Position numbers and translations under genes: made by a program. This document shows, piece by piece, positions 2,110 through 28,834 of a DNA stretch of 32,221 nt. Position 1 is the first letter of the stretch; every line of letters begins with the position of its first letter. The notes under the pieces were generated by a model. That model ran no database searches. It was not told the origin of the DNA and worked only from the letters and a program-made list of their open reading frames with translations. This DNA comes from Rhizobiaceae bacterium. GTDB lineage: Bacteria; Pseudomonadota; Alphaproteobacteria; Rhizobiales; Rhizobiaceae. Location: assembly GCA_026981655.1 (NCBI GenBank), contig JALSIJ010000022.1, positions 1 through 32,221 of the forward strand, read 5' to 3'.

Positions 2110-3510
2110 ATGGCAAAGACATTATACGACAAAATCTGGGATGATCATCTGGTTGATGAGCAAGACGACGGCACCTGCCTGCTTTATATTGACCGCCATC
2201 TTGTGCATGAGGTTACCAGCCCGCAGGCCTTTGAAGGTTTGCGCATGGCCGGTCGCAAAGTACGTGCGCCGGAAAAAACCCTTGCCGTGGTTGATCACAA
2301 CATTCCAACCACCGACCGCAGCAAAGGCATCGCCAATAAGGAAAGCCGCATTCAAGTGGAAGCCCTTGCTGCCAACGCGGCCGAGTTTGGCGTTGAATAT
2401 TATTCCGAGACCGATAAACGCCAGGGCGTTGTACACATCATTGGCCCGGAACAGGGCTTCACCCTGCCCGGCATGACCATCGTTTGCGGCGACAGCCACA
2501 CCTCCACACATGGAGCCTTTGGCGCTTTGGCCCACGGTATCGGCACCTCAGAAGTGGAGCACGTGCTTTCCACTCAAACGCTGATCCAGAAAAAAGCCAA
2601 AAACATGAAGGTCGAAGTCAATGGCATTCTGCCCGCGGGCGTTAGTGCCAAGGACATCATTTTGGCCATCATCGGTGAAATCGGCACCGCCGGCGGCACC
2701 GGCTATGTGATTGAATTTTGTGGCGAAGCTATTGAAGCACTTTCCATGGAAGGCCGCATGACCGTCTGTAATATGACGATTGAGGGCGGCGCGCGCGCAG
2801 GCCTTATTGCGCCTGATCAAAAAACCTTCGATTACATAATCGGCAAACCAAAATCACCAAAAGGTGACGCGCTGGAAAAAGCCCTTGAATATTGGAAGGG
2901 CCTCAAATCTGACGAAGATGCCCACTTTGACAAGGTGCTTAAACTGGATGCTGCCAATCTGCCGCCAACCATCACCTGGGGCTCTTCACCGGAAGATACA
3001 ATTGCCATCACCGGCGCAGTACCCAACCCGGACGATATAGCCGATGAAAACACCCGCACGTCCAAATGGCGCGCACTTGAATATATGGGCCTTAAACCCG
3101 GCACCGCGATGACCGATATTACCATCGACCGGGTATTTATCGGCTCTTGTACCAATGGCCGGATAGAAGATTTTCGTCAGGCAGCCGCCGTCGTCAAAGG
3201 CAAGAAAATCGCCGACGGTGTTTCCGGCATGATCGTACCGGGCTCCGGCCTGGTGAAAGAACAGGCAGAGAAAGAAGGGTTGGATAAGATCTTTGTTGAA
3301 GCCGGTTTTGAATGGCGTGAACCTGGCTGCTCGATGTGTCTGGCGATGAATGATGACCGCCTGAAACCGGAAGAGCGCTGCGCCTCGACCTCCAACCGCA
3401 ACTTTGAAGGCCGTCAGGGCTTTAAGGGCCGCACTCATCTGGTCTCGCCTGCTATGGCCGCGGCTGCCGGCATCGCCGGGCATTTTGTTGATATAAGGGA
3501 ATGGGAGTAA
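2110..3510 (+). CDS. leuC: 3-isopropylmalate dehydratase large subunit
   Basis: LeuC is the catalytic [4Fe-4S] subunit of isopropylmalate isomerase, converting 2-isopropylmalate to 3-isopropylmalate in leucine biosynthesis in the cytoplasm. The 466-residue length is typical. The three cluster cysteines are visible: C347 in GSCTNG, and C407 and C410 in PGCSMC. Other family motifs are the N-terminal [27 protein letters not shown] and the C-terminal [13 protein letters not shown]. The ATG start has GAGGA 7 bases upstream. It needs the small subunit LeuD, which is not in this window; leuC and leuD are often separate in alphaproteobacteria. It is monocistronic here, converging on the sensor kinase gene. 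Confidence 0.97.
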
Positions 3511-6965: not shown

Positions 6966-7021
6966 ACGGGGCCGCACAAAGCAACTGCACCATGCAGCCC
7001 CAAATTGCCGTAAGCGAAAAA
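6966..7021 (+). repeat. Dispersed structured element, copy D (3' fragment)
   Basis: CCCCAAATTGCCGTAAGCGAAAAAAC near 6998-7023 nearly repeats the 3' part of copy B (CCCAAATTGCCGTGAGCG then an A-run at 28773-28797). Upstream, GGGGC (6968-6972) can pair with GCCCC (6997-7001), the place taken by the third hairpin in the full copies. The terminal AGAGC hairpin is missing because the acs stop codon begins at 7025. It starts about 20 bases after the nuclease gene. Confidence 0.5.
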
Positions 7022-7024
7022 ACT

Positions 7025-9670: not shown

Positions 9671-10111
9671 ATGTCATCTCTTTATCAAATATCCGCAACT
9701 GCATTGCAGTGGCAAAAAACTTTCGGATCAAAAATTCTGGTGCTGGTTTTGGTATCCAGTCTTGCTGCCTGCTCATCATTGCCGAGCTTTGGGCTGTTTG
9801 GCGGCGGGACGGTAACCTATAATGCACCATCGTGGTGCGTTCCATTCCGGTTAAAACGCGTATTAAGACAAGTCGCGCGCCGTTATGGCAATGTGACCGT
9901 TCATTCAACCTATCGAACCTGGTGGCATAATCGTAAAGTAGGTGGCGCATCAAAATCCATGCATCGCAGGTGCAAAGCTGTTGATTTCAGCGTGTCCAAA
10001 AATATGAGTGCCGCCTATCGCTATGTCGCCAGACACCGTTCTGTTGGCGGGCACAAGAAATACCGCTCTGGCCATATCCACATTGACACCGGCGCCAAGC
10101 GAACCTGGTAA
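9671..10111 (+). CDS. Lipoprotein D-Ala-D-Ala carboxypeptidase-like (peptidase M15) protein
   Basis: A 146-residue lipoprotein: a hydrophobic signal at about 21-33 ends in SSLAAC with lipidated C34. The mature part is a zinc peptidase fold of the M15 type (YcbK/DUF882-like). Zinc ligands appear as H98 and D105 in SMHRRCKAVDF and H137 in GHIHID, with H135 beside it; HSTYRT near 78 precedes them. Such enzymes trim peptidoglycan peptides at the membrane or periplasm. The start at 9671 is chosen because GGAG sits 6 bases before it; earlier in-frame starts at 9653 lack this. It is alone on the plus strand, downstream of a CtrA box, which fits cell-wall work timed to the cell cycle. The enzymatic specificity is not proven. 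Confidence 0.8.
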   Translation: MSSLYQISATALQWQKTFGSKILVLVLVSSLAACSSLPSFGLFGGGTVTYNAPSWCVPFRLKRVLRQVARRYGNVTVHSTYRTWWHNRKVGGASKSMHRRCKAVDFSVSKNMSAAYRYVARHRSVGGHKKYRSGHIHIDTGAKRTW

Positions 10112-10120
10112 AAAGAGAGT

Positions 10121-10291
10121 TAGCCCGACAAATAAAGGCCCGGCGCAAGTGCACCGCATTAGCGCAGGCCGGGGCGTAGTTCAAGTTGCACGTTGAGCAA
10201 AGCGAAGCGCAAAACTTGAACCATTAGAAAAGCCCCGATTAGCCGTGAACAATAAAAATAGAGCGTGATTATCGAAGAAGGACGCGCTCTA
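10121..10291 (+). repeat. Dispersed structured element, copy C (diverged, with extra long hairpin)
   Basis: It shares with copies A and B, in the same order, AGCCCGAC, GCCCGGCGC...GCACCGC, GGCCGGGGCGTAG, AGCCGTGA and an A-rich box, then TAGAGCG. It lacks the 5' hairpin. Between the third hairpin and the 3' box it carries an insertion that folds: CGGGGC (10170-10175) with GCCCCG (10232-10237), enclosing GTTCAAGTT (10179-10187) with AACTTGAAC (10213-10221). The terminal hairpin TAGAGCG (10259-10265) with CGCTCTA (10285-10291) overlaps the stop codon of the convergent YcaQ-type gene. Confidence 0.55.
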
Positions 10292-11476
10292 TTGATTAAG
10301 CCAAACCACCTTATCGACACTGCCTAATCTTGCCTGACGGATAAGTTCCGCATCCAACCGTGCCTGGCGCGCATTAGAAAGCCGCACCCCCGGCTCCAGC
10401 CATAATTGTTTTATTTGCAGCTCATTTTCGGGACGGTTGGCGCGCATATCGATACGACCAATTATCCGGTCTTTTTCAAGAACTGGAAATACATAATAGC
10501 CATATTTGCGCTTCGGGGCCGGTACATATATCTCAATCCTGTAGTCAAAATTAAACAACCATTCAAGCCGCTTTCTATCGCGAATAACCGGGTCAAAGGG
10601 CGACAATACGCGAATGCGATCGGGAATTTTTGGTAAATTTTCTACCCGCTCCGCAAGGCCAGAAAAAGCGACCGCCTCTCGCAATTTAGAACCATCTGCT
10701 GTCATCAGTTCAACCTGCTCAATTGCTCGATCATCTTGCTCCGATAGCCATTGCCGAACCTCCTGAATTGAAAGCAGATTCCAATATCTGGAAATGTCGG
10801 CAGGCGTTCCAAACCCAAGCCGTTCAAGCGCAGAACGGCAGGCCCAATCGACAAACTCACCCTGATCGCATTCGCCGCAATAATCTCTTTCGTTAAAAAA
10901 ACGCGCGCTCAAATCATAGACTTTTTGAAATCCGTCTCGAGCAGAAATTGCAAGATGACCCGCCTGCCACAAATATTCCAGCGCCGCTTTGCCATCATGC
11001 CATTGCCACATCTCCTGCGGGCCATCGCGTTTGGGACGTTCCAGATCACGCGAACGAACCGGCCCCTGTTTGGAAATCAGCTCCAGTAAATCATCACATT
11101 GACCAAGAAAGCCTTCACCCTGCCAGCGAATAAAATTCTTGCGCAGCCGCTCCTCTTTGCGCTGAAACCGCCGCTTCCAAAACCTGTAATATTCAGCCGG
11201 AATGACCGATGCATCATGAGTCCAACCTTCAAATAACAGCCGGTCATTTTCAATCAACCGCTTGAGATGAACTGGCCTATAGGTCTGGTTTCGGGCAAAC
11301 AGTGTCATATGCTGCGCACGCTCCACCCACTGAATTGAATCAACCTGGACAAAGCCCAACTGGCAAACAGTTGCAAACAATTCTGCCGGTGATTGCTTAA
11401 GATGCGGCGGCAGGGTGAGACCCTGAAGATGCAGCACCAGATGCCGGGCCTGTTTGTTCAAAAGCCTAATGGTCAT
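10289..11476 (-). CDS. YcaQ/AlkX-type winged-helix DNA crosslink glycosylase
   Basis: A 395-residue protein of the HTH_42 (YcaQ, AlkZ/AlkX) family: DNA glycosylases that remove alkylated bases and unhook interstrand crosslinks. The catalytic QxD motif typical of the YcaQ (AlkX) branch is Q44-V45-D46 in GFVQVDSIQW, followed by ERAQHMTLFAR. Three winged-helix regions and a C-terminal beta-rich segment (LSPFDPVIRDRKRLEWLFNFDYRIE, then GYYVFPVL) are visible, and the length is normal. It is the last gene of a five-gene minus-strand run and starts 11 bases after the DUF3995 gene. Company with a glutathione transferase and AhpD-like protein suggests a response to alkylating or electrophilic damage, which is an inference. 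Confidence 0.88.
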   Translation of the reverse strand: MTIRLLNKQARHLVLHLQGLTLPPHLKQSPAELFATVCQLGFVQVDSIQWVERAQHMTLFARNQTYRPVHLKRLIENDRLLFEGWTHDASVIPAEYYRFWKRRFQRKEERLRKNFIRWQGEGFLGQCDDLLELISKQGPVRSRDLERPKRDGPQEMWQWHDGKAALEYLWQAGHLAISARDGFQKVYDLSARFFNERDYCGECDQGEFVDWACRSALERLGFGTPADISRYWNLLSIQEVRQWLSEQDDRAIEQVELMTADGSKLREAVAFSGLAERVENLPKIPDRIRVLSPFDPVIRDRKRLEWLFNFDYRIEIYVPAPKRKYGYYVFPVLEKDRIIGRIDMRANRPENELQIKQLWLEPGVRLSNARQARLDAELIRQARLGSVDKVVWLNQ

Positions 11477-17954: not shown

Positions 17955-18734
17955 ATGGTCGAACTTACGCTACCTAAAAACTCCCGTGTTACCGATGGCA
18001 AAACCTGGACCAAGGTAGAAGCAGCAGCTCCCGCTCGCGAATATAAAATTTATCGCTGGTCGCCTGATGATGAGGGCAACCCGAAAGTTGATACTTATTA
18101 TGTCAACACAGATGATTGCGGACCGATGGTGCTGGATGCACTTATCTGGATTAAAAACAATGTCGACCCGACACTGACCTTCCGCCGCTCCTGCCGGGAA
18201 GGTATTTGCGGCTCTTGCGCCATGAATATCGATGGCACCAACACACTTGCCTGCACCAAAGGCATGGATGAGGTTGAGGGCACGATTAAAATCTATCCAT
18301 TGCCGCATATGCCGGTGGTCAAGGATCTGGTGGCCGACCTTACCAATTTCTATGCCCAGCATCGCTCCATCGAACCGTGGCTGAAAACCACCACGCCAAA
18401 GCCTGAAAAAGAATGGCCACAATCGCATTTTGACCGCGAAAAACTCGACGGTCTATATGAGTGTATTCTTTGCGCCTGCTGCTCGACCTCCTGCCCTTCC
18501 TATTGGTGGAATGGCGATCGTTATTTAGGCCCGGCCGTATTGTTGCAAGCCTATCGCTGGCTGATTGACAGCCGCGATGAAGCTACCGGTGACCGGCTGG
18601 ATGATCTTGAAGACCCATTCCGGCTCTATCGCTGTCATACCATTATGAACTGCACGCAGGCCTGCCCCAAAGGGTTGAACCCGGCCAAGGCAATTGCCGA
18701 AATTAAGAAAATGATGGTTGAGCGGCGGGTTTAG
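17955..18734 (+). CDS. sdhB: Succinate dehydrogenase iron-sulfur subunit
   Basis: SdhB, 259 residues, carries electrons from SdhA through [2Fe-2S], [4Fe-4S] and [3Fe-4S] clusters to the membrane anchors. The [2Fe-2S] motif is [10 protein letters not shown] with a later C near LACTKG; the other clusters use [16 protein letters not shown] and [17 protein letters not shown]. The length and motif order are normal, and the C-terminus [14 protein letters not shown] is typical. The ATG has AAAGG about 11 bases upstream. It is separated from sdhA by 1,235 bases holding two other genes in the same orientation, so it is presumably still part of the operon. A structured element follows its stop immediately. 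Confidence 0.97.
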
Positions 18735-18925
18735 AGCCTGCTTCACATTTACATGGAAGCAGTCAGGCTGCGATTGGAGCCCGACTTGCAAATTGATTGA
18801 ATCAATTTGAGGGCGGAACCGGCCCGATGCGAATGCATCGCTCCCGCGAAGGCTGGTGCGTAGCATCAAGTGGCCGTGAGCGAAAAAACAGAGCGATTCC
18901 GTCAAAGACGGAAACTCTAGAGTTT
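18735..18925 (+). repeat. Dispersed structured element, copy A (after sdhB)
   Basis: A full-length copy that begins directly after the sdhB stop. Hairpins in order: CTGCTTC (18738-18744) with GAAGCAG (18756-18762); CAAATTGAT (18789-18797) with ATCAATTTG (18801-18809); CGATGC (18825-18830) with GCATCG (18835-18840); TGGTGC (18854-18859) with GCATCA (18863-18868); then the box GCCGTGAGCGAAAAAA (18873-18888) and TTCCGTC (18897-18903) with GACGGAA (18907-18913), flanked by AGAG and CTCT. It ends in the palindrome AAACTCTAGAGTTT. Copy B (28687-28834) matches it with pairing-preserving changes. Confidence 0.65.
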
Positions 18926-22147: not shown

Positions 22148-22261
22148 CAATTCTTTACAATTAGGGCATGGACTCAATTAGGAATACGGCTGTGCAGCAT
22201 AATAATTTTGCTTCCACAAGGCGAAAATGATCGATTTAGTCGGGCACCAATGAGGAGTCTT

Positions 22262-22345
22262 CACCCCATGAGGGCGAAATTATCATGCCGCCCTCATGGG
22301 CTGGGGTAAAATGACCCACTTCAGTGTCGAAAAGCCTTGCCGATG
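22262..22345 (+). repeat. Strong 12-bp hairpin, possible distant member of the dispersed element
   Basis: CCCATGAGGGCG (22265-22276) pairs perfectly with CGCCCTCATGGG (22289-22300) around a 12-base loop. Directly after it GGCTGGGG...TGACCCA (TGGG 22302-22305 with CCCA 22315-22318) and GTCGAAAAG echo the GGCTGGGG...GTCCCA...GCGAAAA order in copy B. It lies about 150 bases upstream of ispG. It could be an attenuator or terminator, but no T-run follows. Membership in the family is uncertain. Confidence 0.45.
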
Positions 22346-22446
22346 GGCCGCTTCGCCTGTATTTTTCTCCTTGATTTGAACCATTTTACCTCCCACACAG
22401 TTCACAATCTTAATTGGGTTCAGACCCTAACCACAGGCACAAAGCA

Positions 22447-28682: not shown

Positions 28683-28834
28683 ATTAGACTGTTTCACATT
28701 TAGGTGGAAACAGTCAGGCTTCGAAGAGAAGCCCGGCGCGTTGCGCCGCACCCGCATAGGCTGGGGCTTAGTCCCAAATTGCCGTGAGCGAAAAAAACAA
28801 GAGCGATTCTATCCAATAATGAAAAGCTCTAGGG
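28683..28834 (+). repeat. Dispersed structured element, copy B (after the HIG1-like gene)
   Basis: Hairpins in order: GACTGTTTC (28687-28695) with GAAACAGTC (28707-28715); GGCTTC (28717-28722) with GAAGCC (28728-28733); CGGCGC (28734-28739) with GCGCCG (28743-28748); TGGGGC (28762-28767) with GTCCCA (28771-28776); the box GCCGTGAGCGAAAAAA (from 28781); and AGAGC (28800-28804) with GCTCT (28826-28830). It begins 14 bases after the HIG1-like stop. Compared with copy A, both arms of stems 1, 3 and 4 differ but still pair. There is no coding sequence here. Confidence 0.65.

Follow-up and report, generated by a model that had tools for sequence, protein, structure and literature searches.

The intergenic element that lies behind sdhB in this stretch of DNA is one member of a dispersed repeat, present in about 110 copies in a 3.4 Mb genome and composed of five hairpins with a near-invariant box (GCCGTGAGCGAAAA) and TA ends. 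In our view, it is probably a non-autonomous, MITE-like mobile DNA element of the window's genus with a widely conserved fold, mobilized in trans, possibly through a transposase of the IS630 type. Two sets of observations carry this interpretation: (i) the repeat has a high copy number, sites empty of it exist in a congener, a TA is found at the insertion point and its placement is intergenic, chiefly between convergent genes, and (ii) the fold of the strand that reads the box has been kept by paired changes, both within the genome and across alphaproteobacterial genera.

Anatomy and abundance of the repeat

The window, meaning the whole stretch of 32,221 nt that was analyzed, is contig C22, one of the 273 contigs of a 3.43 Mb draft genome. 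Both copies proposed in the initial annotation, A and B, are present in it, and their bounds were refined from the TA at both ends to 18732–18919 and 28685–28831, respectively. The paired differences reported between them were verified: stem 1 reads CTGCTTC/GAAGCAG in A and CTGTTTC/GAAACAG in B, stem 3 reads CGATGC/GCATCG and CGGCGC/GCGCCG, and stem 4 reads TGGTGC/GCATCA and TGGGGC/GTCCCA. The box, which had been described as unchanged and unpaired, is indeed identical in the two copies (18873–18888 and 28781–28796) but is unpaired only in part: its GCC and GCG pair with the upstream CGC-GNA-GGC, and GUGA and the A-run are free. The fold of each copy beat all 200 of its 200 dinucleotide shuffles (z −4.2 for A and −4.9 for B). 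The features found in the window are listed below, where R1 denotes a covariance model of 148 positions and 44 pairs built from 18 copies of the same genome (alignment A2).

18732–18919, forward strand: copy A, from TA to TA, 188 bp, with an insert of about 49 nt in the loop of hairpin 2 (R1 match 18734–18921, 119.1 bits, E 2.9e-37; bounds set by eye at the TA ends)
18732–18734, forward strand: TAG with which copy A begins, serving also as the stop codon for sdhB (17955–18734; open reading frame with SdhB-type Fer2_3 and Fer4 domains)
18738–18762, forward strand: copy A hairpin 1, CTGCTTC / GAAGCAG (sequence, alignments)
18766–18824, forward strand: copy A hairpin 2, GGCTG / CGGCC, with the insert module at 18771–18819 (model match, sequence)
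18825–18840, forward strand: copy A hairpin 3, CGATGC / GCATCG (sequence, alignment)
18845–18882, forward strand: copy A hairpin 4, CGC-GAA-GGC-TGGTGC ... GCATCA-AGTG-GCC-GTGA-GCG (sequence, alignment, model match)
18873–18888, forward strand: copy A box, GCCGTGAGCGAAAAAA, with GCC and GCG paired and GTGA and the A-run unpaired (box scan, conservation)
18890–18918, forward strand: copy A terminal hairpin 5, AGAGCGATTC...CTCT, containing a GATTC (GANTC) site (sequence, model match)
28685–28831, forward strand: copy B, from TA to TA, 147 bp, the basic insert-free form (R1 159.1 bits, E 3.4e-50)
28687–28715, forward strand: copy B hairpin 1 (sequence, folding, model match)
28717–28733, forward strand: copy B hairpin 2, GGCTTC / GAAGCC (sequence, folding, model match)
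28734–28748, forward strand: copy B hairpin 3, CGGCGC / GCGCCG (sequence, folding, model match)
28753–28790, forward strand: copy B hairpin 4 with its internal loop (sequence, folding, model match)
28781–28796, forward strand: copy B box (box scan)
28800–28830, forward strand: copy B terminal hairpin 5 (sequence, model match)
10096–10291, forward strand: third, diverged copy with an insert module of about 50 nt in the hairpin-4 loop; left end uncertain (R1 46.5 bits, E 9.6e-14)
6985–7022, forward strand: fragment, a hairpin-4 remnant with the box GCCGTAAGCGAAAAAA (sequence, box scan; no hit in the model search with E up to 1)

The stop codon of sdhB, a TAG provided by copy A in the window, is a TAA in the congener G003. 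Likewise, the last three bases of the third copy are the stop codon of a convergent AlkZ-like gene (10289–11476, reverse strand). A lone box-like sequence, GCCGTGAGTGAAATAA, lies downstream of a gene at 1179–1194 and gave no model match as a copy.

Genome-wide, the box was found 96 times with up to two mismatches, against three occurrences of a backwards control. A covariance-model search of the genome, as had been recommended, returned 125 R1 matches at E ≤ 1e-3 (the best 150 of 1108 candidates were scored); together with the box count, these matches indicate that the element is not a chance feature. Alignment A4 comprises the 111 rows with E ≤ 1e-6, taken with their surroundings; since one row duplicates another in reverse reading, the context counts rest on 110 copies.

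In its basic form of about 147 bp, the element runs from a TA through hairpins 1 to 4, the last with an internal loop GNA / GUGA, an A-rich stretch and hairpin 5 to a second TA. The length is 140–153 bp in 51 of the 110 copies and exceeds 160 bp in 42, the longer ones being due to extra hairpin modules that occupy the loops of hairpins 2 and 4. Some copies have a CCCCGGACTTGATCCGGGG-like palindrome within the second insert module. In the congener G003, the hairpin-4 insert module is also seen independently of the element, as a tandem array with a 53-bp unit (L253, contig C22 of that genome, about 3200–3500, reverse strand). The unpaired GUGA is among the best-conserved parts (G 1.00, U 0.93, G 0.98 and A 1.00 in A4), and this near-invariant internal loop looks like a putative binding site.

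A TA is present at the 5′ end of 86 copies, at the 3′ end of 61 and at both ends of 47 (n = 110). The consensus ends, TAGACTGTTTCATG and, read inward from the other side, TAGAGCGTTTCCTT, agree only partially, and each is itself a hairpin. A link to AGAGC-type palindromes, suggested in the initial annotation, is plausible as judged from the end hairpins, which are alike and read TAGA...TCTA. GANTC occurs in the last 45 nt of 54 of the 110 copies (60 sites), compared with 13 sites in 13,376 nt elsewhere in the element, an enrichment that is confined to half of the copies. Solo end hairpins numbered zero in G003 by a pattern count that we judge unreliable. In the window's genome, a solo palindrome, TAGACTACGTCATGTTTACATGGAAGCGTCTA, which resembles hairpin 1 alone, is seen at about 1171–1204 of locus L387 (G000:C68), some 25 nt behind the IS630 element described below. 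Besides, locus L186 (G005:C2, 1501–1711) holds a 211-bp element with terminal inverted repeats of about 33 bp that are like the end hairpins described here; by eye, the box core is absent from it.

Paired changes and the probable folding strand

Pairing was scored over the 44 pairs in three alignments: A2 (the 18 own copies, a sequence alignment), A3 (49 diverse matches) and A4. Standard pairs occupied 91.0%, 89.7% and 89.8% of the cells in A2, A3 and A4, respectively, figures to be read bearing in mind that A3 and A4 were fitted to the model and so lean towards it, and that the A2 structure was drawn partly from A2 itself. Covariation was judged by shuffle and slide controls, the shuffles keeping the relatedness of the copies. 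Two-sided changes were found in 21 (A2), 41 (A3) and 42 (A4) of the 44 pairs, and none of 500 shuffles scored as high; when the partners were slid by one to three columns, the covariation score fell from 0.330 (A2), 0.495 (A3) and 0.360 (A4) to at most 0.071. In A3, which covers many genera, the stems vary widely and the box is unchanged. The paired changes in 41–42 of 44 pairs of the larger alignments thus support the selection on a fold that had been suggested from copies A and B.

Within mostly Watson–Crick pairs, G-U cells outnumbered A-C cells by 45:13 (A2), 80:44 (A3) and 282:106 (A4), ratios that are possibly inflated since G-U was allowed in drawing the structure and A3 and A4 were fitted to that structure. 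Counted by pair, G-U was ahead in 17, 19 and 28 pairs and A-C in 5, 8 and 9 (A2, A3 and A4). On double-stranded DNA, G-U and A-C would be expected to be equal, so the excess argues that the strand reading GCCGTGAGCGAAAA is the one that folds. This is the most likely folding strand, and RNA and single-stranded DNA fit alike.

Constraint on single copies was assessed in 24 nearest-copy pairs with a divergence of up to 15%. At this cut-off, 54 one-sided changes preserved pairing and 60 disrupted it, where 40.9 preserving changes would be expected in the absence of constraint (p 0.008); at 10%, the counts were 23 preserving and 27 disrupting (17.3 preserving expected, p 0.06), and at 6%, 14 and 15 (8.3 preserving expected, p 0.02). 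Paired and unpaired positions had diverged alike (0.073 and 0.079). The weak constraint in recently copied pairs suggests that the fold is important for spreading rather than at each site. The simplest reading of a weak constraint on single copies together with a strong constraint over the longer term is selection on the lineages that multiply; the small excess of kept pairs leaves room for some function at individual copies.

Insertion sites, gene ends and a candidate mover

Genes were called with a simple codon-based finder, and the expected placement was derived from the same finder applied to the G003 pieces and the window. None of the 110 copies was inside a called gene, and gene overlap with a copy never exceeded 60 nt. 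Among the 94 copies with both neighbors, 51 had convergent, 36 codirectional and 7 divergent genes at their sides, against 12.6–15.5 convergent expected. Among 71 upstream sense genes, 13 have the outermost three bases of the element as their stop codon, and the same holds for 12 of the 79 convergent genes downstream; these stops (21 TAG and 4 TAA) are supplied by 25 different copies, copy A with sdhB being counted apart because its R1 match begins 2 nt late. On the antisense strand, 70 of the 91 parsable copies have a terminator-like end, formed by hairpin 5 and, behind it, the A-run complement (a raw count), and a T-rich flank on the sense side was found in 12 of 108 copies. A scan for consensus terminators was negative for copy A and, for copy B, gave no site of the hairpin-5 type.

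To compare insertion sites, about 1.06 Mb of the 3.9 Mb of the congener G003 (some pieces overlapping) was searched for the sites of the 110 copies. A matching place was located for 29 copies; automated calling put 12 of these in an empty class and 17 in a filled class, which need to be read with the individual sites: among the former, L060 is a deletion remnant in which the initial 18 nt of the element persist, and two (L356) are ambiguous; among the latter, some hold the same element (L050, L342), L042 has a rearranged copy, others contain different DNA and L044 was classed as filled solely through another repeat close by. Neither G003 nor G002 has the copy B insertion at the equivalent site. 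Junction alignments with G003 were obtained at 11 of the 14 sites attempted. At L338, the TA-element-TA of the window's genome corresponds to an exact single TA at an intact G003 site, which indicates that insertion duplicates the TA. The junctions at L028, L044, L353 and copy B agree with TA duplication; L352 and L364 have a TA near the junction, with diverged flanks, and in the alignments of L036, L340 and L368 the TA is absent at the G003 site. The initial annotation had offered, as an alternative to a new RNA, a known repeat or miniature mobile element; the copy number, the placement and the empty congener sites uphold the miniature mobile repeat, and the selected fold is upheld as well.

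A single IS630-family element was found in the window's genome (HTH_Tnp_IS630 and DDE_3 domains), with the ends TAGAGCACTTCCGG / TAGAGCACTTTCGG, which bear a short likeness to the repeat ends (9–10 of 12 bases, TA included). It lies at 98–1147 of locus L387, and an A-run divides its transposase between two frames. The DNA of this element is single-copy in its own genome and had no match in G001–G005; the repeat itself has at least 37, 70, 76 and 35 matches in G001, G002, G003 and G004, respectively. Other DDE_3 genes occur in G002, G003 (two fragments) and G005, at loci without paired TAGAGC-type ends. A strict end pattern had no hit in 15 transposase loci, L387 with its IS630 element included, and was therefore too strict; a looser one found an exact pair of ends in L387 only and scattered hits with one to three mismatches elsewhere. 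IS630 elements duplicate TA on insertion. Furthermore, IS630-Spn1 has been indirectly linked to the pneumococcal RUP repeat, according to excerpts of PMC2229807. An IS630-type transposase, acting in trans, is perhaps the best candidate for the mover, as judged from the likeness of the ends.

Reach across the Alphaproteobacteria and competing explanations

R1 matched 22 of 41 genomes, the own genome included. A wider model, R2, was built from 49 diverse matches; among 289 genomes from the class, at least 30 gave a match to it at E ≤ 1e-5, again with the own genome included (11 candidates were scored per genome). In a phylum-wide draw, R2 matched 13 of 299 genomes, and all 13 carry the label of the own genome or of the same family, order or class. 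A scan of contigs with the 16-mer was unspecific, giving at least 109 stretches, mostly by chance, of which 61 were searched with R1; 14 loci among these matched at E ≤ 1e-3, 11 of them labeled as alphaproteobacterial taxa, two labeled "Proteobacteria" and one labeled "Bacterium". An Oscillospiraceae locus (L164) gave a weak R1 match (E 0.004). Named matches come from Henriciella, Asticcacaulis aquaticus, Hyphomicrobiaceae, Rhodospirillales, Rhizobiaceae and, weakly, Mesorhizobium atlanticum, and the core is better conserved between genera than the end hairpins. Core units stand close together in both orientations in Bacterium BMS3Bbin10 (L161, 1552–2152), and two weak, like-oriented core matches are close together in M. 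atlanticum (L131, 492–827). Searches of plasmid records left copy B and L091 unmatched and gave, for L181, one 41-bp match in Streptomyces that looks like chance. Comparison with Rfam, another of the checks recommended at the outset, yielded no family match in the window at the gathering score, and a search of six loci up to E 5 gave two matches, both unrelated.

In an Rfam scan of 46 loci (6 + 20 + 20) for RNA genes, nine contained 23S rRNA and in seven a tRNA was no more than 200 nt from the match, L293 (tRNA about 770 nt away) being left out. In L190, the match begins 127 nt into the 23S gene and is weak (22.5 bits); in L182, where each strand has a match, the start is 134 nt into the gene. 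The remaining seven 23S loci have the match between 23S and 5S; one genus accounts for four of these genomes. Wherever the match stands beside a tRNA or after 23S (14 loci), the element runs antisense to the RNA gene, and in 11 of these loci the element was called downstream of that gene. The exceptions (L306, L316 and L327) arise because the model match extends 19–29 nt into the tRNA, an overlap which implies that the final portion of such matches may be tRNA itself. At L310, L316, L327 and L299 (the last tRNA-like by eye only), the A-run end of the core nearly abuts the tRNA 3′ end, which places a T-rich stretch after the tRNA.

Several explanations may account for these results. Under the one we favor, two related end hairpins flank a three-hairpin core carrying the GCCGTGAGCGAAAA box; a transposase acting in trans, for which the IS630 type is the best candidate, would recognize the TAGA-type ends and duplicate the TA. 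The core fold would be retained since only properly folding copies, as RNA or single-stranded DNA, amplify or are tolerated, and single copies would drift after insertion. Insertions would persist where they are least harmful, with the element ends supplying stop codons, and the A-run of the box beside hairpin 5, being terminator-like on the other strand, may render an insertion behind a convergent gene nearly silent. However, a transposase that reads the ends alone does not explain the wide retention of the core fold. The same placement could also reflect domestication, that is, an element that serves as an RNA 3′ end or two-way terminator for convergent genes and whose fold is kept by the host. 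The convergent-gene enrichment, the antisense hairpin 5 with a U-tract in 70 of 91 copies and the antisense orientation in 14 of the 14 tabulated tRNA and 23S loci of other genomes point in this direction, but purifying selection against insertions elsewhere accounts for the placement equally well, pair loss in recent copies is not much below the neutral rate and the element is missing from a good part of the orthologous sites, and we consider domestication unlikely. Somewhat less probable still is that the folded box strand itself is mobile, either as reverse-transcribed RNA or as single-stranded DNA cut by an unknown enzyme, with the terminal hairpins as lineage-specific additions. This would agree with a core better conserved between genera than the ends, with the strand asymmetry of G-U over A-C and with the core A-run end lying against tRNA 3′ ends in several genomes; the TA ends and the single TA of the empty L338 site, however, fit an ordinary DDE transposase, and a Y1 transposase is absent from G002 and G003. 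A REP or REPIN moved by a RAYT (Y1 tyrosine) transposase would share the palindromic ends, high copy number and extragenic placement, and the window's genome and G001 each have a single PF01797 match. Notwithstanding, this origin is very unlikely: PF01797 has zero matches in G002 and G003, which hold at least 70 and 76 element matches, and, to our knowledge, TA duplication is no feature of REPINs.

A different question is whether the repeat already has a name. It might be a published rhizobial or alphaproteobacterial repeat (RIME, Sm/ABC or CIR) previously unannotated in this genus, which is possible, though we would not expect it, and which concerns the name only and is compatible with the other mechanisms. 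CIR, the Caulobacter CcrM-associated intergenic repeats (Chen and Shapiro 2003, as cited in excerpts of PMC2229807 and PMC10969869), are likewise alphaproteobacterial and intergenic, with TA ends and a conserved GANTC in one hairpin arm (PMC2229807, in excerpt), and here GANTC is found in the last 45 nt of 54 of the 110 copies, about half of them. A relation to CIR is thus a real possibility. The form given for CIR in these excerpts, two arms and a linker in about 110 bp, differs from the five hairpins and 147 bp of the present element, a comparison made by description. RIME and the Sm/ABC rhizobial repeats (Osteras 1995, as cited in excerpts of PMC2573895 and PMC1273637) are intergenic palindromes too, a likeness also drawn by description. 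These families and the 23S intervening sequences are described or mentioned in the parts consulted of PMC2229807, PMC10969869, PMC2743711, PMC6191907, PMC2573895 and PMC1273637; among the top titles of the open-licence literature, we found no recognizable account of the element or of a link between a repeat and 23S intervening sequences.

Among better-known systems, MITEs with TA ends (RUP, ERIC and Correia/NEMIS) are, in excerpts of PMC2229807, short, non-coding, intergenic and of high copy number, with TA ends and presence or absence in relatives. The element described here differs from them in its three covarying core hairpins and the near-invariant internal-loop box kept between distant genera, and in having imperfect hairpins as terminal repeats and a mover that is only a candidate. 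Enterobacterial BIME/REP and REPIN are extragenic multi-copy palindromes as well; in comparison, the present element is far longer and multi-hairpin, and two copy-rich congeners are without a Y1 transposase. Helix-9 IVS I of alphaproteobacterial 23S rRNA is placed after a 127-nt 5′ fragment (PMC2743711, in excerpt), and the L182 and L190 matches are at the corresponding 23S position, the copies in the window being intergenic. We tentatively put forward a broader reading, which we hold to be rather doubtful as a whole: one ancient alphaproteobacterial mobile family would be defined by a folded strand in which the GCCGUGAGCGAAAA box accompanies a core of three hairpins, and what spreads would be this fold, in the form of RNA or single-stranded DNA; lineages would add their own end hairpins and loop modules, and insertions behind tRNA genes, in 23S–5S spacers and in helix 9 would explain at least a share of the intervening sequences in alphaproteobacterial rRNA.

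Small bacterial repeats are usually regarded as short palindromes with no conserved shape, whereas here a high-copy mobile repeat retains a strand-specific, multi-hairpin fold between distant genera. Miniature mobile elements are known in bacteria; a strand-specific conserved multi-hairpin core beside and inside RNA genes is unusual, if it has not been published under another name. This opens to test whether the spread of MITEs needs a folded RNA or single-stranded DNA, and offers a possible source of the helix-9 intervening sequences in 23S rRNA. In addition, the covariance model could allow annotators to identify as repeats what would otherwise be entered as candidate small RNAs. The window also carries a second mobile repeat of about 263 bp (22165–22427), with the ends TTAGGGCATGGACTCAATTAGG / CTTAATTGGGTTCAGACCCTAA, which is absent at the matching place in G003 and has other copies elsewhere in that genome.
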